Shown piece after piece: positions 1-19,335 of a stretch of DNA of 64,000 nt. The stretch's first letter is position 1. The number at the start of each line of letters is the position of its first letter. Made by a program: the position numbers and the translations under genes. The notes under the pieces were generated by a model. It did not search any database. It was not told the origin of the DNA and worked only from the letters and a program-made list of their open reading frames with translations. This DNA is from Actinophytocola xanthii (GTDB lineage: Bacteria > Actinomycetota > Actinomycetes > Mycobacteriales > Pseudonocardiaceae), in assembly GCF_001921205.1 (NCBI RefSeq), contig NZ_MSIE01000044.1, positions 1 to 64,000 of the forward strand, written 5' to 3'.

Positions 1-696
1 AAGGTCACCAGTGCCGGCGCCGGCTCACCCAACCGCCTGCTGTACACCGGCCCCGCCACCGTGACGCCGCCCCCGGCACCCAAGCCGCTCCCACCGGCGC
101 TGGTCGTGGCCAACCCCGGTGCCCGCTCGACGGTCCTCGGCACCACGGCGTCGCTCCAGCTCACGGCGACCGGCGGCACCACCCCGTACACCTGGAAGGC
201 GAACGGGCTCCCGACCGGCCTGACGATCAACACGGCCGGCCTGATCTCCGGTACGCCGACTGTCACGGGCACCTGGACGGTCTTCGCGACGGCTACCGAC
301 GCCGCCAGGAAGATCGCCACGACGACGTTCACCTGGACGGTCGCCAAGGCCGTGTGCCCGCCGGTGGCCAACGTCGCCGACGTGCGGATCAGGGACCTGA
401 CCCAGGCGGTCAGCACGGTGAACGTCACCGGCTGTGTCGGCAAGGCCTCGACCGCGAGCATCATCGAGATCCACGTCCGGCACAGCGCACGCGGACAGCT
501 GGTGGTCGAGCTGGTCGCCCCGGACGGGACGGTCTACCCGCTGCTCAGCCACACCGGCGGCACCGCGGACAACATCGACCAGCGGTTCACCCGCAACCTG
601 TCCGCCGAGAACGCCAACGGCGTCTGGCAGCTGCGCGTGCGCGACACCCAGCTCGGCGACTCGGGCTACGTGGACCGGTGGATGCTGGACCTCTGA
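1..696 (+). CDS. Secreted serine peptidase, C-terminal part (putative Ig domain + P-domain), 5' truncated
   Basis: The reading frame is open from base 1, so only the last 231 residues are visible. The first residues (SPNRLLYTG) resemble the end of actinobacterial secreted subtilisin- or trypsin-type peptidases, but the catalytic domain lies outside the window. About residues 30-118 look like a putative Ig domain (SGTPTVTGTWTV pattern). About 121-231 match a proprotein-convertase P-domain, including the typical LRVRDTQLGDSGYVDRW end. P-domains usually stabilise or target extracellular peptidases. The peptidase identity is inferred from the tail only. Confidence 0.75.
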   Translation, partial: KVTSAGAGSPNRLLYTGPATVTPPPAPKPLPPALVVANPGARSTVLGTTASLQLTATGGTTPYTWKANGLPTGLTINTAGLISGTPTVTGTWTVFATATDAARKIATTTFTWTVAKAVCPPVANVADVRIRDLTQAVSTVNVTGCVGKASTASIIEIHVRHSARGQLVVELVAPDGTVYPLLSHTGGTADNIDQRFTRNLSAENANGVWQLRVRDTQLGDSGYVDRWMLDL

Positions 697-726
697 CGGG
701 GGGAGGGGCCGGGGAGGCGCCCCGGG

Positions 727-2067
727 TCACGAGCCGGTGCTCGGGGCCCGGGGCGCGCCCACGTCGCCGATCGCCGCGACGATCGTCTGCACCTGGTTCC
801 GGCCGGAGTCCTTGGCCACGAACAACGCGTCGTCCGCGGCGAGCAGGACGTCCTGCAGCTCGGGCCCGAACTCCGGGTAACAGGCGACGCCGACGGAGAC
901 GCTCAACCGGTCGACGGCGCCGCCGCCGGTCTCCGAGATCGGCACCCGCAGCTCGCGCACCCGCTCACAGACGCGCTCGCCGATCGCCCGCAGGGCCTCC
1001 GCGTCGACCTCGGGGCAGAGCATCACGAACTCCTCGCCACCCCAGCGCCCGACCACGTCGTAGCGTCTGGCACAGGCGGTCAGCGTGTCCGCGACGGCCT
1101 GCAGCACCCGATCGCCGACCAGGTGCCCGTGTGCGTCGTTGACGGCCTTGAACCGGTCGAGGTCGACCATCAGCACGCCGACCTGGCTGCCGTCCCGCGC
1201 CGCTCGCTGGATCTCCGCGGTCGCCAGCGTCGTCCACGCCGTCGCGTTGGCGAGGCCGGTCTTCTGGTCGGTCGAGGCCGCCTCCTCCAGCTGGCGCATC
1301 AGCACGCTGCGGTGCAGCACGAGCAGGGCCGGCACGACCATCAGCGCCCAGGCCGGGTTGAACGAGATCAGCAGCGCGGTGATCGCGCCGAGCCCGAGCG
1401 TGCCGTACTCCAGCGCGTTCTCCTTGCCGGTGCCCAGCGCCCGCCGCAGGTCCAGCCGACGCTCGTGCAGGGTGATCGCGGCCGCGACCAGGCCGGAGTT
1501 GACCGCGGAGTAGGCCAGCACGGCCAGGGCCACCGCGACCACCGTCACCGGGCGGTCCCACTGGTCCGGGCCGGCCGGGGCGACCAGCTCCCGCACCAGC
1601 CAGCCGGTGTGCGCCGCGAGCGCCACGGTCGAGGCGGTGAACACCAGCCGGTAGGCCCGCACCCCGCGCACCCGGTACCAGCTGCGCCAGAACAGGTGCA
1701 GGTAGAGGGCGCCGACCACGGCCGGGGTCAGCGCCGGCGGGAGTACCAGCGCGGCGGAGAACGTCCAGACCGAGGTCAGGTTGACGTGCGGGGTGTCGTT
1801 GAACCGGCGGCGGACCCGCTCGACGTGCCGGGTCAGCTCACCCATGAGCAGACCGAGCCCCACGATGATGCCGAGCGCGGTCAGGTCGGCGGTGGTGACC
1901 ACCGCCTGCCGGGAGAGCAGCGCCGTCACCGCGACCGCGGTGAGCTCCACCACGAGGATGAGAGTGAGCACCGGCGCGGGCTCCCTCCACAGTGCCCAGC
2001 GCGAGGGCGACCTGGACCGGTGATCGGCGTCCGGGGATGCTGATCGCGCTGATCGGGCGAGAACCAC
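727..2067 (-). CDS. Membrane-anchored GGDEF diguanylate cyclase
   Basis: Predicted to make cyclic di-GMP from two GTP at the inner face of the membrane. The N-terminal ~250 residues contain about six hydrophobic segments forming a sensor-like membrane domain. The C-terminal ~170 residues are a GGDEF domain with an intact active-site motif GGEEF (near residue 342) and the upstream FKAVNDAHGH and GDRVL signatures. No EAL domain is present. The frame stays open to 2124, but codons above 2067 are encoded by the tandem repeat, so a GTG at 2067 is the preferred start. No strong RBS decides it. It reads away from the repeat array. Confidence 0.85.
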   Translation of the reverse strand: MVLARSARSASPDADHRSRSPSRWALWREPAPVLTLILVVELTAVAVTALLSRQAVVTTADLTALGIIVGLGLLMGELTRHVERVRRRFNDTPHVNLTSVWTFSAALVLPPALTPAVVGALYLHLFWRSWYRVRGVRAYRLVFTASTVALAAHTGWLVRELVAPAGPDQWDRPVTVVAVALAVLAYSAVNSGLVAAAITLHERRLDLRRALGTGKENALEYGTLGLGAITALLISFNPAWALMVVPALLVLHRSVLMRQLEEAASTDQKTGLANATAWTTLATAEIQRAARDGSQVGVLMVDLDRFKAVNDAHGHLVGDRVLQAVADTLTACARRYDVVGRWGGEEFVMLCPEVDAEALRAIGERVCERVRELRVPISETGGGAVDRLSVSVGVACYPEFGPELQDVLLAADDALFVAKDSGRNQVQTIVAAIGDVGAPRAPSTGS

Positions 2068-2071
2068 CTGA

Positions 2072-3565
2072 TCAGCACCCCCGTCGCCGCAGTCGGCGGC
2101 TGTCCTGCCGGGAGGAGGTGCCAACGATGAACAAGGACTGGTGACCCTTTCGTTCCGCCTCAGCGCTTCCCGCGCCGCGGTCCGCGGCTGTCCTGTTGGG
2201 AGGAGGTGTCAGTGGTGAACAAGGACTGGTGAGCCTTTCGTTCCGGTCAGCGCTTCCCTTGCCGTGCTCGGCGGCACTCCCTGTGGGAGGAGGTACCAAC
2301 GATGAACAAGGACTGGTGAGCATCTCATAATGATCGGTGCCGTCGTCTTCGCGCCCTCCCGTGCGGGCGGGCGAACCCGCCCGGCGGGAACGGGCGCGAA
2401 GCAACGACACCCCGACGACACCGCAGAGCAGCACCCCGAGCGCACCGCCCGCGGCCACGGCGACGACCGGGCCGGTGGCGTCGGCGACCAGGCCCGCGCC
2501 GAGGACGGCGACTCCCTGCGAGGACAGCACGCCCGCGCCGACGAGTCCGGAGGCCGCTCCGCGCCGGTAGTCGGGCACCCCGAGGACGAACGCGGCCTGC
2601 GCGAGGACCAGGTACGCGGTGGTGCACGCCCCGGACAGCGCCCACAGCACCACGACCAGCGCGAGCGGCGGCCCGGTGAGGCAGGCCAGCAGCGGCAGGC
2701 CCGCGGCCACCGCGAACACGACGGTGGCCGAGGTTCGGTTGGCCGGCGGAACCCGGCTGACCAACCACGCACCCACGATGCTGCCGACCGGGTCCGCGGC
2801 CATCAGCAGGCCCACTGCCGCTGCCGTCACGCCAAGTCCGGCGGCGTAGGGGGCGGCCAGCGCCTCCGGCACGACGAACAGGCCGACCAGCCAGGACAAC
2901 GCGGTCAGGGCCCGCAGGACCGGGTCCCGCCAGATCAGCGTGACGGCTCCGGGCGAGCGCGACGACCTGCCGGTGCGCGCGGCGGGGCGGTGGGCGACGC
3001 CGACCAGGAGCACGGCGGCGCCGAGCGCGAAGGTCGCCGCGTTCAGGCCGAGCGCCACGTGCGGGTCGAGCACCACCAGCAGTGCGCCGCCGCCGAGGAA
3101 CCCGGCGACCTGGGCGGCCTGGTTGGTGATCGTGCGCAGGGTGAGCCCCAGCAGGTACCGCTGGCCGGTGAGCACGGTGGGGAGCAGCGCCTGCTGCGCG
3201 GCCTTGACCGGCGCGCCGCCCAGGGTCACCAGGACAACCAGCACCAGCAGCACCGGTAACGGCAGGCTCGGGACGGCCATCGCCGCGGCGATCCCGGCGC
3301 GGAGGAGGTCGACGACGACCATCAGCTCGCGGCGCGGGAAGCGGTCGGCCAGCCAGCCCAGCAGGGCGCCGCCGACCAGCGCGGGGAGGAACGTGAGGGC
3401 GTAGGCGAGCGCGGTCAGGCTCGCCGAGGAGCTCTGCGCGTAGACGAGCACGGCCAGGCCGACTCGGGCGAGCTGGTCCCCGGTGACCGACAGCAGGTCC
3501 GCGGCCCAGAGGGCACGGAACTCCCGAACAGCGAGCACCTTGCGAAACCCAGCCCGACGACCCAT
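2072..3565 (-). CDS. MFS transporter (EntS-like exporter family)
   Basis: A proton-driven exporter of the major facilitator superfamily, about 12 membrane segments within the first ~390 residues. The N-terminus (REFRALWAADLLSVTGDQ) and the GWLADRFPRRELM loop resemble the EntS/MFS_3 group that exports siderophores and small natural products. The ATG at 3565 starts just before this core. The upstream extension of the frame is not family-like. It lies 129 bp downstream of the NRPS gene on the same strand, so it may export that product. The last ~107 residues are low-complexity sequence encoded by the tandem repeat array and are not part of the normal family. Confidence 0.8.
   Translation of the reverse strand: MGRRAGFRKVLAVREFRALWAADLLSVTGDQLARVGLAVLVYAQSSSASLTALAYALTFLPALVGGALLGWLADRFPRRELMVVVDLLRAGIAAAMAVPSLPLPVLLVLVVLVTLGGAPVKAAQQALLPTVLTGQRYLLGLTLRTITNQAAQVAGFLGGGALLVVLDPHVALGLNAATFALGAAVLLVGVAHRPAARTGRSSRSPGAVTLIWRDPVLRALTALSWLVGLFVVPEALAAPYAAGLGVTAAAVGLLMAADPVGSIVGAWLVSRVPPANRTSATVVFAVAAGLPLLACLTGPPLALVVVLWALSGACTTAYLVLAQAAFVLGVPDYRRGAASGLVGAGVLSSQGVAVLGAGLVADATGPVVAVAAGGALGVLLCGVVGVSLLRARSRRAGSPARTGGREDDGTDHYEMLTSPCSSLVPPPTGSAAEHGKGSADRNERLTSPCSPLTPPPNRTAADRGAGSAEAERKGHQSLFIVGTSSRQDSRRLRRRGC
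2127..2144 (+). CDS. Five-codon mini-ORF MNKDW, copy 1
   Basis: ATG start, five sense codons, TGA. It is preceded by AGGAGGT at a seven-base spacing, an ideal Shine-Dalgarno. Whether it is translated is unknown. No homology can be judged at this length. Confidence 0.35.
   Translation: MNKDW
2215..2232 (+). CDS. Five-codon mini-ORF MNKDW, copy 2 (GTG start)
   Basis: This copy uses GTG in place of ATG yet keeps AGGAGGT, the seven-base spacing (spacer sequence different from copy 1) and the same four following codons and stop. A start-to-start substitution is what selection on initiation would leave, although one substitution is weak evidence. Confidence 0.35.
   Translation: MNKDW
2302..2319 (+). 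CDS. Five-codon mini-ORF MNKDW, copy 3
   Basis: ATG start with AGGAGGT seven bases upstream and the same five codons. The sequence after the stop diverges from copies 1 and 2, so the conserved core here is just SD through stop. Confidence 0.35.
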   Translation: MNKDW

Positions 3566-3694
3566 CGCCCGCCTCGCTCGCTCCCCAACTCCAACAGGCC
3601 GACACCGGAACCCTAGGGGCCGGGCGGCGGGGGAACAGGGCACCGAACGTTGTCTACCTGAATGGCTCAACCCGGTCACGCAGCGTGAGAACGA

Positions 3695-6600
3695 TCATCG
3701 GATCGTCCAGGACCTGCTCCCGGGCCTCGGCGAGCGTCGCCCGGCTCGACCGGTCGCCATCGAGGCCGCCAGCCCGGCGATCGTGGGCGCGGTGAACAAG
3801 GTGGACAGGGAGAGGTCGACCGCGAGCCCGCGGCGGATCCGGGCGATCAGCCGCGTCGCGGTCAGCGAGTGCCCCCCGAGCGCGAAGAAGTCGTCATGTA
3901 CGCCGATGGGGGTCCCCGGCCCGAGGCTGAGCACCTCGCGCCAGATGGTGGCCAGTCGCCGTTCGGTGTCCGTGCGCGGCGGGACGGTCCGGGTGCGGTC
4001 TTTGGTCCAGGCCGGTTCGGGCAGCGCGGCATGGTCGATCTTGCCGTTCGGCGTCGTCGGCAGCGCCTCCAGCGAGACGTAGCGGTCGGGCTGCATGTGG
4101 TCGGGCAGCCGGCGGGCCAGCCAGGGCCGCAGCTCGGCGGCACCCACCCGGCGACGGGGCACCAGGTAGGCGACCAGCCGCACCGCGGCGTCGCCGGTCG
4201 TCCACGTCGTCACGGCCGCGTCGCGCACCGAGTCGTGCGCCCGCAGCGCGGCCTCGATCTCGCCGAGCTCGACCCGGTGCCCGCGCACCTTCACCTGGCG
4301 GTCGGCGCGGCCGAGGAACTCCAGCCGGCCGTGCCGGCGGCGCACCAGGTCGCCGGTGGCGTAGAGCCGGGCTCCCGGCGTCGCGGAGAAGGGGTCGGGC
4401 CGGAACCGCTCCGCGGTCTGCCCGGGCAGGTTCCGGTAGCCCCTGGCCACACCCGCCCCCCCGATGTGCAGCTCGCCGATCACCCCGTCCGGCACCGGTC
4501 GCATCGCGCGGTCGAGCACGTACAGGGTGGTGTTCGCGACCGCCGGGCCGAGCCGGATCGGGTGCGGGGCCGGCGGGACGCGGCCGGCGGCGGAGTAGAC
4601 GGTGGTCTCGGTCGGGCCGTACCCGTCGATCAGCTCGGCGCCGTCGCCGCGCAGGGCGTCGGCCAGCTCCCGGGTGAGCGGCTCGCCGCCGGTGATCCGC
4701 AGCCGCACCCGGGTGGGAACCCCGCCGGCGGCGACCAGCGAGCGCCACGCCGACGGCGTGCCCTGGACGACTGTCGCGCCGCTCTCGACCAGCCGCTCGC
4801 GCAGCCGGTGACCGTCACCGACGTCGTGCGCGGCGAGCAGGGTGACCGACGCGCCGCGCAGCAGCGGGGCGATCATCTCCACGACCGACATGTCGAACGA
4901 GGGCGTGTTGATCGAGGCGACGCGGTCCGCGGGCGTCAGGTCGAGCAGCTCGTCCAGGTGCGACAGCAGGTTCGCCACACCGCCCCTGGTCACCTCGACG
5001 CCCTTGGGGCGCCCGGTGGAGCCGGAGGTGAACAGCAGGTAGGCGAGTGCCGTCGGGGGCGGCTCGGGCGGCGTCCCGGGCACCTCGGTGAGGTCGATGC
5101 TGTCCAGGTCGATGCTGTCCAGGTCGATCACCCGCCAGGGACCGGGCAGCTCCACGCCGGCTGCCCGGTGGGTGAGCAGGACCGGTGCCCCGGCGTCGGC
5201 GGCCATCGCGCTGAGCCGCTCCGCCGGCCAGGTGGGATCCAGCGGGACGTGACCGCCGCCGGCCCGCCAGGTGGCGAGGATGGCGAGCGGTACGGCGGTG
5301 CCGCGGGCCAGGCACAGCGCGACCGGTACGTCCGGCCCCACCCCGTTGCCGCGCAACAGCTCGGCCAGCCGGTTGGCCCGCTCGTCCAGCTCCGCGTAGG
5401 TCAACGCCCCGTCCGGCCCGCAGACCGCGGGTGCGTCCCCGAAGCGGCGCAGGTCGACCCGGAGCGGGCCGCCGGTCCGCACCGGGACGGCCGGCGGACG
5501 GGCGCTGGTCAGCGGCAGCTCGGCCACCGGCCGGTGCGGGTCGGCCATCGCGGCACGTAGGGCCACCGCGTAGGTCCCGGCGAACCCGGCAACGCTCACC
5601 TCGTCGAACAGGTCGACGTCGTAGCTCCACCTCGCCCGCCACCGGTCCGGTCCCGGTTCGACGGTCAGGAGCAGGTCGAAGGCCGAACCGCCGTTGGGCA
5701 GCGGCTCCGGGGCGAACGTCACCCCGTTCGCGGTCAACGGTTCGGGCCGGGGCTCGACCGCGAACATGGTCTGCACGAGCGGTGTGCGGGTCGCTCCGCG
5801 CTGCGGTGCCAGCAGGTCCACCAGCTGTTCGAACGGCAGGTCCTGGTTGGCGAGCGCGAGCTGGACGGTGCGCTGGGTGTTCGCGGCGAGCTCGGCGACG
5901 GTGGTGTCCGGGGAGATCCGCGCCGGCAGCGCGAGGGTGTTGGCGAGGAAGCCGACCAGGTGTTCGGTCTCCGGTCGGGTGCGGCCCGGGACGGGGGTGG
6001 CGACGAGGAACTTGTCCTGCCCGGACAGCCGGTGCAGGACGGCCTGGTACACCGCGAGCAGCTCGCCGAACGATGCGCCGGGCGCCGGCTCGAGCTCGGT
6101 CACCAGCTCGGCCCCGCGCCCGCGAGCCGCGGTGTGCGGGCGGTCGGTCGGCAACCGCAGGACGGTGGGGACTCCGGCCAGCTCCCTCGTCCAGTGTCGT
6201 GCCGCCTGGGCGAAGCCGTTCGCCTCGACCTGCTCCCGCTGCCAGACCGCGTAGTCCGGGTACTGCAGCGCCGGCTCGGGAAGGCGTTCGCCGGCGTAGT
6301 ACCGGGTCAGCTCGTCGAACAGCACCGCGCAGGACCAGCGGTCGACCACGGCGTGGTGCACCACCAGGACCAGCTCGTGCGCCTCGGCGTGGTGGCGGAC
6401 CAGACCGGCCCGCAGCAGCGGTCCTGCCGCGAGGTCGAACGGGGCGCGGACCAACCTGTCCACCTGGGACGGTTGGATCGCCACGACCGGCACGTGCGCC
6501 CGCGGGGCGACGACCTGCGTCGGGATCCCGTCGGTCGCGCCGAACGTGGTCCGCAGCGCCTCGTGCCGCGCGATGAGCGCCCGCAGTGCCTCGGTGAGCC

Positions 6601-6733
6601 GGCCTGGGTCCAGCGGACCGCTGACCGTGATCCGCCAGCCGATGTTGTGGGCGGGGCTACCCGGTAGGAGTTGGTCGAGCAGCCACAACCGCCGCTGGCC
6701 CGAGGATGTGGGGAAGACGAAGACGTGGTTCAC
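3695..6733 (-). CDS. Single-module non-ribosomal peptide synthetase (C-A-PCP)
   Basis: A stand-alone module of 1012 residues. The condensation domain (~1-430) has the catalytic HHxxxD motif as HHAVVD near residue 125. The adenylation domain (~440-900) shows LLFTSGSTGRPKG, GYGPTETT, YATGDL, RGHRVELGEIE and NGKID cores. The carrier domain has DDFFALGGHSL with the phosphopantetheine serine near 951. No thioesterase, reductase or epimerase follows. The binding-pocket code read by eye is roughly D-M-V-Q-I-G-G-V-Y, from which I cannot name the amino acid. The downstream MFS gene is a plausible partner. A GTG at 6733 starts the C domain. A 15-bp duplication (5096-5127) adds a DLDSI repeat between domain cores. 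Confidence 0.93.
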   Translation of the reverse strand: MNHVFVFPTSSGQRRLWLLDQLLPGSPAHNIGWRITVSGPLDPGRLTEALRALIARHEALRTTFGATDGIPTQVVAPRAHVPVVAIQPSQVDRLVRAPFDLAAGPLLRAGLVRHHAEAHELVLVVHHAVVDRWSCAVLFDELTRYYAGERLPEPALQYPDYAVWQREQVEANGFAQAARHWTRELAGVPTVLRLPTDRPHTAARGRGAELVTELEPAPGASFGELLAVYQAVLHRLSGQDKFLVATPVPGRTRPETEHLVGFLANTLALPARISPDTTVAELAANTQRTVQLALANQDLPFEQLVDLLAPQRGATRTPLVQTMFAVEPRPEPLTANGVTFAPEPLPNGGSAFDLLLTVEPGPDRWRARWSYDVDLFDEVSVAGFAGTYAVALRAAMADPHRPVAELPLTSARPPAVPVRTGGPLRVDLRRFGDAPAVCGPDGALTYAELDERANRLAELLRGNGVGPDVPVALCLARGTAVPLAILATWRAGGGHVPLDPTWPAERLSAMAADAGAPVLLTHRAAGVELPGPWRVIDLDSIDLDSIDLTEVPGTPPEPPPTALAYLLFTSGSTGRPKGVEVTRGGVANLLSHLDELLDLTPADRVASINTPSFDMSVVEMIAPLLRGASVTLLAAHDVGDGHRLRERLVESGATVVQGTPSAWRSLVAAGGVPTRVRLRITGGEPLTRELADALRGDGAELIDGYGPTETTVYSAAGRVPPAPHPIRLGPAVANTTLYVLDRAMRPVPDGVIGELHIGGAGVARGYRNLPGQTAERFRPDPFSATPGARLYATGDLVRRRHGRLEFLGRADRQVKVRGHRVELGEIEAALRAHDSVRDAAVTTWTTGDAAVRLVAYLVPRRRVGAAELRPWLARRLPDHMQPDRYVSLEALPTTPNGKIDHAALPEPAWTKDRTRTVPPRTDTERRLATIWREVLSLGPGTPIGVHDDFFALGGHSLTATRLIARIRRGLAVDLSLSTLFTAPTIAGLAASMATGRAGRRSPRPGSRSWTIR

Positions 6734-7108
6734 GGTGGCGCCACTAAAGGGCGGCTAAACGGGCGGAATCACGCTGGAAAAACTGGTGGAACCCGCTCAT
6801 CGCACACGCCTTTCCCTGGTCAACTTCTCGGCCACAGGACGCTACAGCGGCGTCGTGGGCGACGAATCGGCCGAACGGAGCCATGGTCGAACCGGCGAGA
6901 ATCAATTGGGAAACGGTGCTTACTTTGGGAGACGGCGTGTATACGAACCGCAAATGCGAAATCGCATACCTGCGGGGATGTTTTTGATTTGCAAATGCGT
7001 CACAATCGGCCGAACGGCACCCGTGGTGCTGGGCCAACCGTCAGGTACACGCGGCGTTCGCAGGAATGTGAGGAAGTTTCAGACCTGGGTGATGGTCCGT
7101 TCGGAGTA
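6734..7108. other. AT-richer intergenic region upstream of the NRPS gene
   Basis: No convincing gene lies here. Bases ~6890-7010 are markedly less GC-rich than the surroundings and contain the nonamer GCAAATGCG twice in direct orientation (6950-6958 and 6991-6999) with CGCAT between. This is promoter- or operator-like and could serve the leftward NRPS gene. Open frames across it on both strands have no family resemblance. Confidence 0.5.
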
Positions 7109-7141
7109 GGCGGGAAGGGCCCCGGGGGTGCCCCTCCCGCC
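7109..7141. terminator. GC-rich hairpin (possible terminator)
   Basis: Arms 7109-7120 and 7130-7141 pair over 12 bases with one mismatch around a nine-base loop. There is no U-tract, as is common in actinobacteria. Confidence 0.4.
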
Positions 7142-7240
7142 TGGCCGTACTCAGGCCGGCTTGAGGGGGTCGTGTCCCATCGACATGAGGCGGTGCCCGG
7201 CCTACCCGGCCTCCCCCGCGGCGAAACCCGGCGCCGGGAT

Positions 7241-7266
7241 GGGTAGGGCGGAGCCTCCTGGGGTAT
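7241..7266 (+). promoter_or_regulatory. Possible sigma-B-type promoter of the DUF4235 gene
   Basis: GGGTAT at 7261-7266 matches the actinobacterial sigma-B -10 element, with GGGT 16 bases upstream fitting the loose -35. It lies 25 bases before the GTG start of the DUF4235 gene. Confidence 0.35.
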
Positions 7267-7291
7267 GTGTTCGGCGAGGATGGGAGGACGT

Positions 7292-7591
7292 GTGAACAAG
7301 CACAAGCTGATCTACAAGCCGGTCGGCACCCTGATCGGTGTTCTCGGCGGGGTCGCGGCCAGCGCCGTGTTCGGCAAGGTGTGGGAGGCGGTCACGGGAG
7401 ACCGCGAGGCTCCCGAGCCGACCGACCGCAGGCGCGGCTGGGGCGAGATCCTGCTCGCGGCGGGTGTCCAGGGCGCGATCTTCGGACTGGTCCGCGCGGC
7501 CCTCGACCGCAGCGGCGCCATCGGCTACCGCAAGGTCACCGGTACCTGGCCCGACGACGACTCGGGCAAGCGGCGCCGGTTCGGCAAGTAG
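7292..7591 (+). CDS. DUF4235 membrane protein
   Basis: A 99-residue protein with the DUF4235 pattern: short basic start (NKHKLIYKP), a hydrophobic segment (TLIGVLGGVAASAVFGKVW), a charged linker, a second hydrophobic helix (ILLAAGVQGAIFGLVRA), and a basic tail. The biochemical function of the family is unknown. GGAGG at 7283-7287 sets the GTG at 7292 as start. An upstream in-frame ATG at 7265 has no RBS and lies over the promoter-like element. Its neighbours and sigma-B-like promoter suggest stress-linked expression. Confidence 0.85.
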   Translation: MNKHKLIYKPVGTLIGVLGGVAASAVFGKVWEAVTGDREAPEPTDRRRGWGEILLAAGVQGAIFGLVRAALDRSGAIGYRKVTGTWPDDDSGKRRRFGK

Positions 7592-7609
7592 CGACCGCGA
7601 ACAGATCGC

Positions 7610-7646
7610 GGCCGGCCCGAGGCGTGTTCCCCACACCGGGCCGGCC
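7610..7646. terminator. Convergent-gene hairpin terminator
   Basis: GGCCGGCCCG (7610-7619) pairs perfectly with CGGGCCGGCC (7637-7646). It lies between the convergent DUF4235 and hypothetical genes. Confidence 0.55.
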
Positions 7647-7663
7647 GGCGTTCTGTCCTGTCC

Positions 7664-8140
7664 TCACCGGCCGAAGACCTCGGCTGCGGCACGTTGACGC
7701 AGCTTCTCCAGCTCGTCGGCCTGTCGGTCGGCCCGCTCGATGAGCCGCTCCAGCCGCTCGGCCGGCAGCCGCGGGTCCCCGGCCTCGCGAAGCGCACGCC
7801 ACGCCATGCCCTTGCCGAGGACCCCCAGCCGCATGGTCTCCAGCTCGATCACCCGGCTCAGGGGGGAGCGGGAGGCGAACCGACGGTTCGGCTTGAGCCG
7901 TGTCGCCTTCTCGCCGATCCAGGCCAGCCACGGCTTGTACAGCTGGGTCTGCACGCCCAGCGTCCGCATCAGGTCCTGCAGGGCCGCCCGGTCCTCGGCG
8001 ATCTCCTCCGCGATCCGGGTCAGCTCTCCGGCCCAGTTCCCCTCGTTCCTGGCCAGGCGCCGGGACAGCTCCATGCCGGCGGTCGCGCCGGCGAGGTGGT
8101 CGTTGAGGTAGACCCCGAGCAGGGCGGGTGCGTCGGTCAT
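7664..8140 (-). CDS. Conserved hypothetical helical protein
   Basis: 158 residues, almost entirely helix-forming and with no membrane segment. The pattern (LGVYLNDHLAGATAGMEL, then RRLARNE, then LMRTLGV) is one I recognise from uncharacterised actinobacterial proteins, and the helical periodicity suggests a four-helix bundle. The start is ATG at 8140; the frame extends upstream to 8176 but without family-like sequence. It lies 36 bp downstream of the alcohol dehydrogenase on the same strand, so the two are probably co-transcribed. I assign no function. Confidence 0.7.
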   Translation of the reverse strand: MTDAPALLGVYLNDHLAGATAGMELSRRLARNEGNWAGELTRIAEEIAEDRAALQDLMRTLGVQTQLYKPWLAWIGEKATRLKPNRRFASRSPLSRVIELETMRLGVLGKGMAWRALREAGDPRLPAERLERLIERADRQADELEKLRQRAAAEVFGR

Positions 8141-8176
8141 GGCCTGGACGTACCCGCCCTGCCGGCGGTGAACCAC

Positions 8177-9361
8177 TCAGGGCAGCAGGAGCACCTTGAT
8201 GGCGCCGTCCTGCTTCTGCTGGAAGATCTCGTAGCCGTGCGGGGCCTCGCTGAGCGGCAGCCGGTGGGTGGCCAGGTCCTCGACGCCGAGCGGGTCGCCG
8301 TCCCCGGTCACCAGCGGCAGGATCTCGTCGACCCAGCGCCGCACGTTGGCCTGGCCCATGCGCAGCTGGATCTGCTTGTCGAACAGCTCCATCATGGGGA
8401 TGGGGTCCACCATCCCGCCGTACACGCCGGACAGGGAGATCGTGCCGCCGCGGCGCACCGCGTCGATCGAGGCGAACAGCGCGCCGAGCCGGTCCACGCC
8501 GGCCTTCTCGGTCATCTTCGCGGCGAGCGCCTTGGGCAGCAGGGTGGTCATCTGCTGCGCGAGCTTGCCTCCGGGCGACCCGTGCGCCTCCATGCCCACC
8601 GCGTCGATCACGGCGTCGGCACCGCGTCCGCTGGTCAGCTCGCGGATCGCGTCGCCCACCTCGCCGGACTCGTTCAGGTTCACCGGCGTCACCCCGTACT
8701 TCGCCGCCAGCGCCAGGCGTTCTGGCACCAGGTCGACGCCGATCACGGTCTCCGCGCCCAGGTGCCTGGCGATCCGGCAGCACATCTGGCCGATCGGGCC
8801 GAGGCCGAACACCGCGACGCTGCCGCCGGCCGGGACGTCGGCGTACGCGACGGCCTGCCACGCCGTCGGCAGCACGTCGGACAGGTAGACGAACCGCTCG
8901 TCCGGCGGGCCGTCCGGCACCGTGATCGGGCCGTAGTGGGCCTGCGGGACCCGCAGGTACTCGGCCTGACCGCCGGGAACCTGTCCGTAGAGCTTGGTGT
9001 AGCCGAGCAGAGCGGCACCCTTGCCGCGGTCGCGTACCTGGGTGGTCTCGCACTGGCTCTGCAGCCCCTGGCCACACATGAAGCAGTGCCCGCAGGAGAT
9101 GTTGAACGGAACGACGACCCGGTCGCCGGGCTTGAGCCGGCCGGCCTCAGGGCCGACCTCCTCGACCACACCCATCGGCTCGTGGCCGAGGATGTCGCCC
9201 TCGTCGATGAACGACCCGAGTACCTCGTACAGGTGCAGGTCCGAACCGCAGATCCCGGTGCTGGTCACCCGGATGATCGCGTCGGTCGGTTCCTCGATCT
9301 TCGGGTCGGGGACGGTGTCCACCCGGACGTCCCGCTTGCCGTGCCATGCGACGGCTTTCAT
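8177..9361 (-). CDS. Zinc-dependent alcohol/formaldehyde-type dehydrogenase (MDR family)
   Basis: A medium-chain dehydrogenase of ~394 residues that oxidises an alcohol or aldehyde adduct with NAD(P). Catalytic-zinc ligands are in TGICGSDLHLY and GHEPMGVVEEVG. The structural-zinc loop CGHCFMCGQGLQSQC keeps the spaced cysteines but the last is displaced. The Rossmann motif is VFGLGPIGQMC. The length and layout fit the glutathione-independent formaldehyde dehydrogenase-like subgroup. GGAGGAG precedes the ATG at 9361 by six bases, better than the GTG one codon earlier. A sigma-B-like promoter lies upstream. The substrate is not predictable. Confidence 0.88.
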   Translation of the reverse strand: MKAVAWHGKRDVRVDTVPDPKIEEPTDAIIRVTSTGICGSDLHLYEVLGSFIDEGDILGHEPMGVVEEVGPEAGRLKPGDRVVVPFNISCGHCFMCGQGLQSQCETTQVRDRGKGAALLGYTKLYGQVPGGQAEYLRVPQAHYGPITVPDGPPDERFVYLSDVLPTAWQAVAYADVPAGGSVAVFGLGPIGQMCCRIARHLGAETVIGVDLVPERLALAAKYGVTPVNLNESGEVGDAIRELTSGRGADAVIDAVGMEAHGSPGGKLAQQMTTLLPKALAAKMTEKAGVDRLGALFASIDAVRRGGTISLSGVYGGMVDPIPMMELFDKQIQLRMGQANVRRWVDEILPLVTGDGDPLGVEDLATHRLPLSEAPHGYEIFQQKQDGAIKVLLLP

Positions 9362-9414
9362 CACACACTCCTCCGCCTCGGACCGCCGGCATTAATGGCG
9401 GTGCGAGAAGAGGG

Positions 9415-9438
9415 TTACCCGATCGCGGGACGAGCAAC
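9415..9438 (-). promoter_or_regulatory. Sigma-B-like promoter of the dehydrogenase
   Basis: On the minus strand GTTG, 14 bases, GGGTAA. This is one base off at each end from the Streptomyces sigma-B consensus GTTT-N14-16-GGGTAY, about 54 bases before the ATG. Confidence 0.45.
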
Positions 9439-9464
9439 CGGGGCCGTTAAGTCTATAGTGGACT

Positions 9465-9914
9465 CTAGTGCTCGGGCTCCGTGATGGGCCACGACATCGC
9501 CACGGTCGTGCCCTGCTCCGACGTCGTGATCTCCGCGGTCGGCGTGAGGCCACGGATCAGCGGCAGACCACGGCCGCGGGTGCCGGGGTTCCTCGGCGGT
9601 TGCTTCCACTGCCCGTAGTCGGTCACCGTGACGACGACCCGACCGAGCTGGGGGTCCCGGACGGCACGCAGGTCGAGCACGCCCTGCAATTGCCCCGCAT
9701 AGGCGTGCTCGACGCTGTTGGCCATGGCTTCGTAACTGGCGAGAACCAGTGCCTCGCGGTCCTCGCGCGACAGGCCGCTGCGCTCCGCCCACTCGGCGAG
9801 GGCGTGCCGCAGGCTGGTGAGTCGCGCGGGGGCGGCGGGTACTCGGAAGTGGAGGTCACCCTCGCGGACGTCATCGAGTTGCTGCTGCCCGGAGTTCACT
9901 CCGCCAGTCCCCAC
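9465..9914 (-). CDS. RsbW-like ATP-binding anti-sigma/regulatory kinase
   Basis: A 149-residue GHKL ATPase (HATPase_c_2) of the partner-switching type, which binds a sigma factor or phosphorylates a STAS protein. The N-box is EAMANSVEHAY, the G1 box VTDYGQW and the G2 box RGRGLPLI. It is the standard length for the family. A GTG at 9914 preceded by GGAGG at about seven bases is chosen as start; a second GTG five codons in is possible. The STAS gene lies 57 bp upstream on the same strand, so the pair forms a classic antagonist/anti-antagonist unit. The target sigma factor is not known; the sigma gene at 52.6 kb is a remote candidate. Confidence 0.85.
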   Translation of the reverse strand: MGTGGVNSGQQQLDDVREGDLHFRVPAAPARLTSLRHALAEWAERSGLSREDREALVLASYEAMANSVEHAYAGQLQGVLDLRAVRDPQLGRVVVTVTDYGQWKQPPRNPGTRGRGLPLIRGLTPTAEITTSEQGTTVAMSWPITEPEH

Positions 9915-9971
9915 CTTTCCGCCTCCGGTGCTCTAATGTCACGTGGGAGTTGTCACGAGGCACGACAATTC

Positions 9972-10346
9972 TCAATCCTCCGTCATTGCCTGTTCACGGG
10001 TGGGGAAGATCTGGATGACGTCGGCGACGCCGGTCAGCTCCATCGGCCGGAAGGTCGACGCGCCCGACGCGACCAGGCGGAACCGCGTGTCGTCCCCGGC
10101 CTGCTCGTTGCAGCCGATCAGCACGCTCATGCCCACTGAGGCCAGGAAGCCGACCTCGGTGAGGTCGACGACGACCATCTCGGGGTTGCGGGCGAGAACG
10201 GTCGTGATCGACTCCTCGAGTACGGGAGCCGTCACCAGGTCCACCTCACCGACCACGTTCAGCACCACCGTCTCGCCGTGGTCCTCGACGTCGACCGAGA
10301 ACCCTCGTGGACCAGGGCTGTCCTCCTGAAACGCCTCGGAGCTCAT
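9972..10346 (-). CDS. STAS-domain anti-sigma factor antagonist
   Basis: A 124-residue SpoIIAA/RsbV-like protein. The core VVLNVVGEVDLVTAP is followed by VVVDLTEVGFLASVGMSVL, where the serine of the LASVG stretch is the usual phospho-acceptor. Unphosphorylated forms of this family sequester the partner kinase and release the sigma factor. The ATG at 10346 has AGGTGA upstream. It is transcribed toward the RsbW-like gene. A perfect sigma-B-type promoter precedes it, which would give positive feedback if the released factor is sigma-B-like. Confidence 0.88.
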   Translation of the reverse strand: MSSEAFQEDSPGPRGFSVDVEDHGETVVLNVVGEVDLVTAPVLEESITTVLARNPEMVVVDLTEVGFLASVGMSVLIGCNEQAGDDTRFRLVASGASTFRPMELTGVADVIQIFPTREQAMTED

Positions 10347-10391
10347 CGCGTCACCTGCCCCGCACACGTGTGTAGCCACATGCGCGGCTGA

Positions 10392-10417
10392 GTACCCCGG
10401 GCGCACGGGATCGAAAC
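10392..10417 (-). promoter_or_regulatory. Sigma-B-type promoter upstream of the STAS gene
   Basis: On the minus strand GTTT, 16 bases, GGGTAC, an exact match to the Streptomyces sigma-B consensus GTTT-N14-16-GGGTAY. The -10 lies about 45 bases upstream of the start codon. Confidence 0.6.
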
Positions 10418-18315: not shown

Positions 18316-19179
18316 CTACACGTGCGGGCAGGTGTGGCGGTACTCCTCGATGTCACTGTCGTTCGGCGGCGGGCAGAGAAACTGCTCGTAGCGGGTGTCG
18401 TTGTCGACGAACCGCTTCATCCAGGAGATGAGGTACTTCGCCATCGTGGTGTTCGGCGTGTTCGGGAAGAAGTGGCTTGCCCCGTCCAGCTCCATGTACG
18501 CCTTCTCCGACGCGGCCGGGATGGACTGGTAGAACGGGATCGAGTGCGAGGACACCGATGCCACCGAGTCGCTCTCGCCGCCGATGATGAACGTCGGTGT
18601 CCGCACCGAGGACCAGGTCTTGTCCGCGTTCCACGGTGCGAGCGGCACCGAGGCCTGCAGGGACGGCCGGGTCTCGGTCGCCTCCAGCGAGCCGCCGCCG
18701 CCCATCGAGTGTCCGGACACCGCGAGCCGGGACGCGTCGATGCGCCCGCGGACCGAGGACCGCTGGGTCAGGTAGTCCAGGGCCGCCAGCAGCTGGTCAC
18801 CGCGGCTGTCCGGCTGGTCGAGGACGGTCAGCGTGTCGATGGTGATCACCACGAACCCCTGGGAGGCCAGCCGCGGACCGATCCAGGCGATGCTCGACTG
18901 GGTCGCGGTGAACCCGGGGGACACGGCGACCGCGCCGAAGGTGCCCTCGGCGGTGCTCGTCGGGTAGTAGATCGTCCCGCCCCCGAAGCCGGTCACGACC
19001 AGGCTGGACACCGAGGTCTGGGATACCGCGAACGGACCGCGGGTCGCCTCGATGCTGTTCTCGGTCGGGTCGGGGCCGCGCTCGTACGGGTTCTCCTGCG
19101 CGCTCGCGGTGCTGGCCGTGCCGGCCAGCACCGAGCCGGCCAGGGCCAGCCCGCACAGGGTTCGAAGGGTTCGTCGCAT
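18316..19179 (-). CDS. Secreted cutinase / polyester hydrolase (TfCut2/Cut190-like)
   Basis: 287 residues. The Sec signal peptide ends around STASAQ; the mature protein begins [10 protein letters not shown] as in Thermobifida and Saccharomonospora cutinases. Catalytic triad: Ser in [10 protein letters not shown], Asp in GGESDSVAS, His in DGASHFF. The substrate-groove tryptophan ([11 protein letters not shown]) is kept; the groove tyrosine of TfCut2 (PGYT) is Phe here (PGFT). A C-terminal cysteine pair (FLCPP and HTCPH) matches the family disulphide. The family cleaves cutin, triglycerides and synthetic polyesters. AGAGG sets the ATG at 19179. It is divergent from a TetR gene. Confidence 0.92.
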
Positions 19180-19335
19180 CTGTCGCACCTCTCGGTCGGC
19201 TCAGCGCTGAGCGCCGGGTTGGAAGCGTATGGTGATGGAAGCGTCGCAGCGAGTAGGCATCACTCGCATCGGTGAAATCGCCGGTGCGTCTGGCAGCCGG
19301 GGTCCGAGCGGCCGCCGCGGCCGTAGGCTTCGGGC

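Follow-up and report, generated by a model that had tools for sequence, protein, structure and literature searches.

The three tandem mini-genes at 2113-2319 on the forward strand of the window (the whole stretch of 64,000 nucleotides of Actinophytocola xanthii DNA that was analysed) are members of a previously unreported actinobacterial family of genes of 5 to 8 codons, which occur singly or in tandem and are divergently oriented to the gene of a membrane diguanylate cyclase. Across this family the SD, start, frame, stop and amino-acid sequence are conserved while synonymous change is free, and the mini-genes are paired with a single family of GGDEF proteins, each GGDEF paralogue clade having a different peptide. 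In our view the units are almost certainly genes on which coding selection acts; their translation in vivo is inferred, there being no Ribo-seq or proteomic data.

The array and its neighbourhood

The features of the window referred to in the text are as follows:

1-696 (+): P-domain protein, in the place of the HxlR regulator; the contig begins here
727-2124 (-): membrane diguanylate cyclase ORF (GGDEF gene), the divergent partner; GGDEF domain E 2.6e-43
1225-1968 (-): membrane domain of the GGDEF protein; no Pfam hit; ECF S-component-like predicted fold
2072-3565 (-): MFS transporter ORF, start placed at the MGRRAG methionine; a longer span, 2072-3679, is also given
2113-2144 (+): mini-gene copy 1; SD AGGAGGT at 2113-2119; ORF ATG AAC AAG GAC TGG TGA at 2127-2144, encoding MNKDW
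2201-2232 (+): mini-gene copy 2; SD at 2201-2207; ORF GTG AAC AAG GAC TGG TGA at 2215-2232, encoding MNKDW
2288-2319 (+): mini-gene copy 3; SD at 2288-2294; ORF ATG AAC AAG GAC TGG TGA at 2302-2319, encoding MNKDW
2347-2401 (+): GC-rich hairpin downstream of copy 3; outer arms CTTCGCGCCC / GGGCGCGAAG, inner CGGGCGGG..CCCGCCCG
3695-6733 (-): single NRPS module, C-A-PCP, near the array

The pattern AGGAGGT-N7-RTG-AACAAGGACTGG-TGA has three exact matches in the window and none in 100 dinucleotide shuffles. The units are ~86-88 bp long, with copy-to-copy spacings of 88 and 87; the N7 spacer and the start codon (ATG, GTG and ATG) vary among the three copies, whereas the SD, the SD-start spacing, the codons and the stop are invariant. 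The earlier note, made from the letters of the window, had described three tandem units with an SD, seven-base spacing, five codons and TGA, which held exactly, and had contrasted the variable spacer and start with the constancy of the remainder, which also held. In copy 2, an in-frame GTG at 2212 could lengthen the peptide by one residue. No fourth copy of the MNKDW pattern was found in the host assembly (8.34 Mb) at ≤2 mismatches.

What that note had missed is that the array lies antisense between the MFS gene and the membrane GGDEF gene, and that the antisense DNA reads as linker repeats of the form TSPCSxLxPPP. Relative to the GGDEF gene the mini-genes are divergent; relative to the MFS gene, the 3' part of whose ORF passes antisense through copies 2 and 3, they are convergent. 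The translation of the GGDEF gene contains RRYDVVGRWGGEEF, and both the GGEEF and the RxxD I-site motifs are present; the partner meets the criterion for a diguanylate cyclase (a GGDEF domain with GG[DE]EF and RxxD I-site), and should, judging by its sequence, be an active, product-inhibited cyclase. The note had also placed the array beside an NRPS module and an exporter. The NRPS link was not supported and was rejected: the module was not found at the relatives' loci, and its presence here is incidental. The MFS gene is a common but not a constant neighbour (it may be fused, coupled or absent), the constant partner being the GGDEF gene; MFS as an obligatory partner was ruled out by mini-genes lacking it at L118, at L084/085 and at the MRNRES loci described below, where an SDR-like neighbour stands in place of the MFS gene.

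Neither a convincing promoter nor a T-tract terminator was found for the window array. A scan with the sigma-70 consensus gave a single site (2303-2331), which falls within copy 3 and was judged meaningless, and an Rfam scan of positions 1-10000 of the window returned matches at chance level only. The hairpin at 2347-2401 is terminator-like, without a T-tract. At most of 19 related loci a GC-rich hairpin starts ~15-30 nt past the last mini-gene stop, the stem sequences being unrelated; hairpin scores after mini-genes have a median of 11 (background median 7, 95th percentile 10), and 58% of loci score ≥11 vs 4.5% of random windows. This enrichment is weak in Actinophytocola.

Mini-genes in related genomes and coding selection

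The array is present at the same locus in the five other Actinophytocola species compared, that is, in 6/6 species of the genus, with 3 copies in the window and 2, 6, 2, 4 and 10 or more in the others. The peptides encoded are MNKDW, MTNKDW, MMNKDW, MRSWDW, MSRSWDW, MLRSWDW and MASWDW, and a second Actinophytocola locus encodes MMGKDW. Whole codons have been gained or lost after the start among congeners while SD spacing is constant; thus, the two copies of one congener (ATG ACG AAC AAG GAC TGG TGA and ATG ATG AAC AAG GAC TGG TGA) retain the seven-base SD spacing with one entire codon added after the start. Because relatives have one or two additional codons, the exact five-codon pattern misses them: across the family it recovered the window plus three unrelated sites with 2 mismatches, and the pattern was then widened.

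Homologues occur in Amycolatopsis, Kibdelosporangium, Prauserella and more distant actinomycetes. An NKDx pattern matched 25/390 family genomes, the reversed control pattern matching none, and found nothing beyond the window in 395 genomes spanning the class. At 19/20 GGDEF loci (L077 alone is without) the GGDEF gene is immediately preceded by an SD-led short ORF on the other strand, the peptides being MRGKDW in Kibdelosporangium, MTNKDW, MRNKDF and MRNKDL in Amycolatopsis, MRNKDL in Prauserella, and MRNKEL. The GGDEF membrane domain is often present in 4-9 copies per Amycolatopsis genome and is also found in other actinobacterial families. When the 400 nt upstream of 143 GGDEF loci were scanned for SD-led ORFs of 4-9 codons, 237 antisense mini-ORFs were found in 105/143 loci, vs 8 in the sense-strand control and 6 in the control antisense inside the GGDEF gene; looser SD rules picked up additional mini-ORFs, and ~25-38 of the 143 loci show no mini-gene by these scans.

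Clade-specific peptides include MRNRES, MRNRDS, MSNRDS, MNGRED, MCGRDN, MRGIEF, MATREG, MASTKDQ and MAGKEW, and those outside the family include MRDNTWT, MRDNNWN, MRANSWD, MRSVQWA, MRHTSWS and MRGWKWS. Beyond the Pseudonocardiaceae (at L241-L265), the peptides are mostly of seven residues with Trp at position 6, again in tandem (MRDNTWT, MRSVQWA, MRHTSWS), and constitute a second peptide subfamily; the overall motifs are M-x-[NGST]-[KR]-[DE]-x or M-R-x-x-x-W-x. The host genome has GGDEF paralogues with mini-genes of their own, MMDKDH at G000:C12:16615 (L222) and a tandem MADRDL and MRDRDL at G000:C68:78095 (L239); none was seen at two others (L228, L233). The MRNRES arrays comprise 2-11 tandem copies, and in 15 whole Amycolatopsis genomes 104/104 hits of the MRNRES pattern fall within a single array in each genome, adjacent to the GGDEF gene.

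Across loci the conserved neighbours are HxlR, GGDEF and MFS only; the HxlR-type regulator, downstream of and convergent with the GGDEF gene (L067-L076), is conserved in most relatives and absent from the window. Coupling to an overlapping GTG gene in Kibdelosporangium was rejected, its frame not being conserved, and an MRNKDW without GGDEF at L094/L117 is probably a chance match. We also observed that the GGDEF protein of L075, from a record named Rhodococcus rhodnii NRRL B-16535, is ~98% identical to that of Kibdelosporangium aridum; this public genome is probably misnamed or mixed.

Evidence for coding selection comes from 143 MRNRES copies chosen by nucleotide similarity alone, with no protein condition. 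RNRES-stop is encoded by 143/143, and 121/125 deviations from the majority base are synonymous when read in the frame of the mini-gene, against 22% if changes were random, the four exceptions stemming from TCC/AGC serine switches; the next best frame, an antisense frame that shares the wobble positions, gives 93/125. Diversity is ~0 at the first two positions of the codons (0.03 in the case of serine) and 0.17-0.34 at position 3 of codons 2-6, with flanks mostly at 0.5-0.7, near saturation. The SWDW set was confined to 20 genuine copies, a relaxed 6-mismatch scan having admitted six chance sites; it shows 17 synonymous and 6 non-synonymous changes, all six of them an Arg/Ala alternation, while the same stretch read in the frame of the antisense fusion ORF shows 3 synonymous changes and 13 that are not. 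The criterion for protein coding, purifying selection on amino acids with an excess of synonymous change, is met in both sets (121/125 for MRNRES, 17/23 for SWDW).

The proposal in the earlier note that selection on translation keeps the tandem mini-genes is therefore supported, far beyond the window, with translation itself still inferred. In the substitution test it had suggested, relatives keep the SD, spacing, start, frame and TGA, and codons change synonymously or are inserted whole; in the search of the host and related genomes it had suggested, copies appear solely at one kind of locus. The alternative it had named, a dispersed DNA repeat, failed on both this restriction and the variation at third codon positions.

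A putative peptide ligand and its rivals

The membrane domain of the GGDEF protein has no Pfam or PDB sequence match. A predicted model, built from 12 sequences (pLDDT 85, pTM 0.83), gave structural matches whose top 17 rows are all ECF S-components (Z 8.6-14.1; next 6.9), and the best Foldseek hit had E 0.14. The model points to the six-helix, ligand-binding fold of an ECF S-component, with the caution that bundles of helices may reach high scores by chance alone. Membrane proteins of the S-component type bind substrates. The peptide type follows the GGDEF tree, and among 45 representatives peptide distance correlates with membrane-domain distance when catalytic distance is controlled (partial r 0.49, 0/500 permutations), the reverse comparison, with catalytic-domain distance given membrane-domain distance, yielding 0.04. 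This co-divergence test is exploratory, as linked genes have a common history and the loci cannot be counted as independent. Taken together, the predicted S-component-like fold, the tracking of the GGDEF tree by peptide type and the co-divergence with the membrane domain favour a ligand/receptor pair.

In the mechanism that we propose, the array would yield a short peptide directly at its final size, without leader or maturation enzyme, and tandem copies would raise the peptide dose. The peptide would be the cognate ligand of the adjacent GGDEF protein, acting via its putatively S-component-like membrane part, and its level would determine how much c-di-GMP is made. The MFS protein, which in many species is fused with the cyclase or coupled to it, may be the carrier that takes the peptide, or a ligand related to it, through the membrane. 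Translation, secretion, uptake, binding and the effect on the cyclase are all inferred, and we regard the claim that these unprocessed mini-peptides are cognate ligands of adjacent diguanylate cyclases, though the best explanation at hand, as about equally likely to be right or wrong. Against it stand the absence of transcript, ribosome-footprint or peptide data, the limits of the fold prediction and of the co-divergence test, the ~25-38 of 143 GGDEF loci in which the scans show no mini-gene, and the differing initial residues of the peptides, which would make processing differ (with Met retained in some and lost in others) and leave no single mature form obvious.

Among the rivals to this ligand model, cis-acting regulation remains possible. 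Here, the GGDEF gene, or its fusion MFS-GGDEF, would be controlled by translation of the mini-genes on a divergent or antisense transcript, for instance because ribosomes occupy it or because the nascent chain is arrested at the stop codon, and the peptide would have no independent role. The mini-genes are always near and divergent from the GGDEF gene, their transcript would in fused loci be antisense to the MFS-GGDEF mRNA, and the stop is nearly always TGA; however, arrest peptides act on a gene further along their own transcript, and no gene of the same orientation follows here, while 2-11 copies with varied N-termini are hard to account for and the last residue differs by clade (W, F, L, V, S, Q, N, D, G, T). 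We find it unlikely that the penta- to octapeptides are an array of RiPP precursors, serving as cores of a small, biarylitide-like modified natural product. Five-residue precursors and up to six copies of bytA are known (PMC13417212), many of the peptides contain Trp and an exporter is nearby, but the genes scanned (window 1-19 kb) include none for a P450, radical SAM, ATP-grasp or other RiPP enzyme, no such enzyme recurs among the conserved neighbours, and MRNRES, MNGRED and MRNKDL lack an aromatic pair. Less likely still is that translation itself is what matters, with ribosomes being sequestered or peptidyl-tRNA dropping off, as happens with the toxic minigenes of bacteria. The geometry of these, very short tandem ORFs with strong SDs, is indeed similar; yet such an effect hinges on the final codon and the tRNA that reads it, and not on a run of four or five residues that are conserved while their codons change freely among synonyms; here, the final codon varies between clades.

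The last rival, that the mini-genes are a by-product, whether of a dispersed DNA repeat or of the TSPCSxxxPPP linker encoded on the other strand by an MFS-GGDEF fusion, can be virtually dismissed as the source of the conservation. In its favour, MFS and GGDEF form in five congeners a single open fused frame, 936-1177 codons long, which passes in antisense through the array, whose reverse strand reads TSPCSxLxPPP-type repeats (also TSPCSxxxPPP), the Pro/Ser/Thr linker of the fusion protein; copy spacings in these congeners are multiples of three, and the antisense strand is therefore also kept open. In the window, by contrast, a one-base difference (88 vs 87 bp unit, near 2155-2162; natural frameshift and assembly error cannot be distinguished) splits the fusion, leaving MFS and GGDEF in different frames, and all three mini-genes are nonetheless intact. 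In other genera, the frame antisense to the mini-gene has phase f0 at L080/082/083 and phase f1 at L078/079/081/090 and is closed at L086, L105 and L107, and the peptide is still NKD[WFL] or NKE[LW]. Furthermore, the period of the MRNRES arrays (~62 bp) is mostly not a multiple of three and their neighbour is SDR-like, synonymous change sits in the mini-gene frame, no dispersed copies were found, and the criterion for a repeat (unrelated sites, codon-independent conservation) is not met. Since the antisense frame shifts or is absent elsewhere while the peptide persists, it is very likely that the mini-genes are not a linker by-product of the antisense fusion gene.

Known systems and implications

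The array resembles several known systems and differs from each: (i) The five-codon biarylitide precursor gene bytA, present in multiple copies in some strains (PMC13417212), upholds the precedent that the earlier note had cited for a five-residue gene, and shares with the array complete genes of ~18 bp in multiple copies. However, an adjacent cross-linking P450 is seen neither among the genes of window 1-19 kb nor among the conserved neighbours, two aromatic or His residues two apart are lacking (MNKDW has one aromatic; MRNRES, MNGRED and MRNKDL have none), and the constant partner is a membrane diguanylate cyclase. (ii) As with RRNPP/Phr, Rgg-SHP and AimP, a short peptide gene lies beside its putative receptor and peptides differ per paralogue. 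In those systems a longer, secreted precursor is cleaved to give the peptide, which binds a soluble regulator; in contrast, the ORFs of the array are already of 5-8 codons with no leader or signal sequence, the putative receptor is a membrane GGDEF protein, and with HxlR, GGDEF and MFS as neighbours the criterion of a cleaved secreted precursor and a soluble TPR-type receptor is not met. (iii) Transporter-diguanylate cyclase fusions, such as the ammonium transporter with a GGDEF domain (PDB 8qj3), likewise join a transporter-type membrane domain to a GGDEF output, and the MFS-GGDEF fusions of the congeners resemble them as well; here, the predicted S-component-like domain, the additional MFS partner and the divergent mini-peptide array are different. 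(iv) The ECF S-components (RibU, ThiT, BioY, FolT, PanT) have the fold that the model tentatively suggests for the GGDEF membrane domain, which nevertheless shows no sequence similarity to them that we could find, is fused to GGDEF and has no ECF module seen at the locus.

No paper on these peptides or on peptide-GGDEF systems was found in the open-licence literature searched. A bolder reading, towards which we lean slightly less than away, is that actinomycetes possess peptide-to-c-di-GMP signalling by a large family of unprocessed peptides of 5-8 residues, each encoded by stand-alone mini-genes, often in arrays, and each sensed by its own membrane diguanylate cyclase of S-component fold. Were it true, few known genes would be as short as these. 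Annotation does not see genes of five to eight codons, and the comparative data hold hundreds of them, in arrays of up to 11, with peptides under strong purifying selection; their partners are a large family of orphan membrane diguanylate cyclases of unknown input signal, in antibiotic-rich genera. If the peptides are ligands, they would provide direct, cheaply testable inputs to c-di-GMP control in actinomycetes and would show how small a functional protein-coding gene can be.

Two further observations concern other parts of the window: neighbouring HATPase_c_2 and STAS domain genes at 9465-10406 (-) resemble an anti-sigma/antagonist pair, and a strong PETase-family (PF12740) hydrolase is encoded at 18316-19188 (-), with E 1.4e-126.
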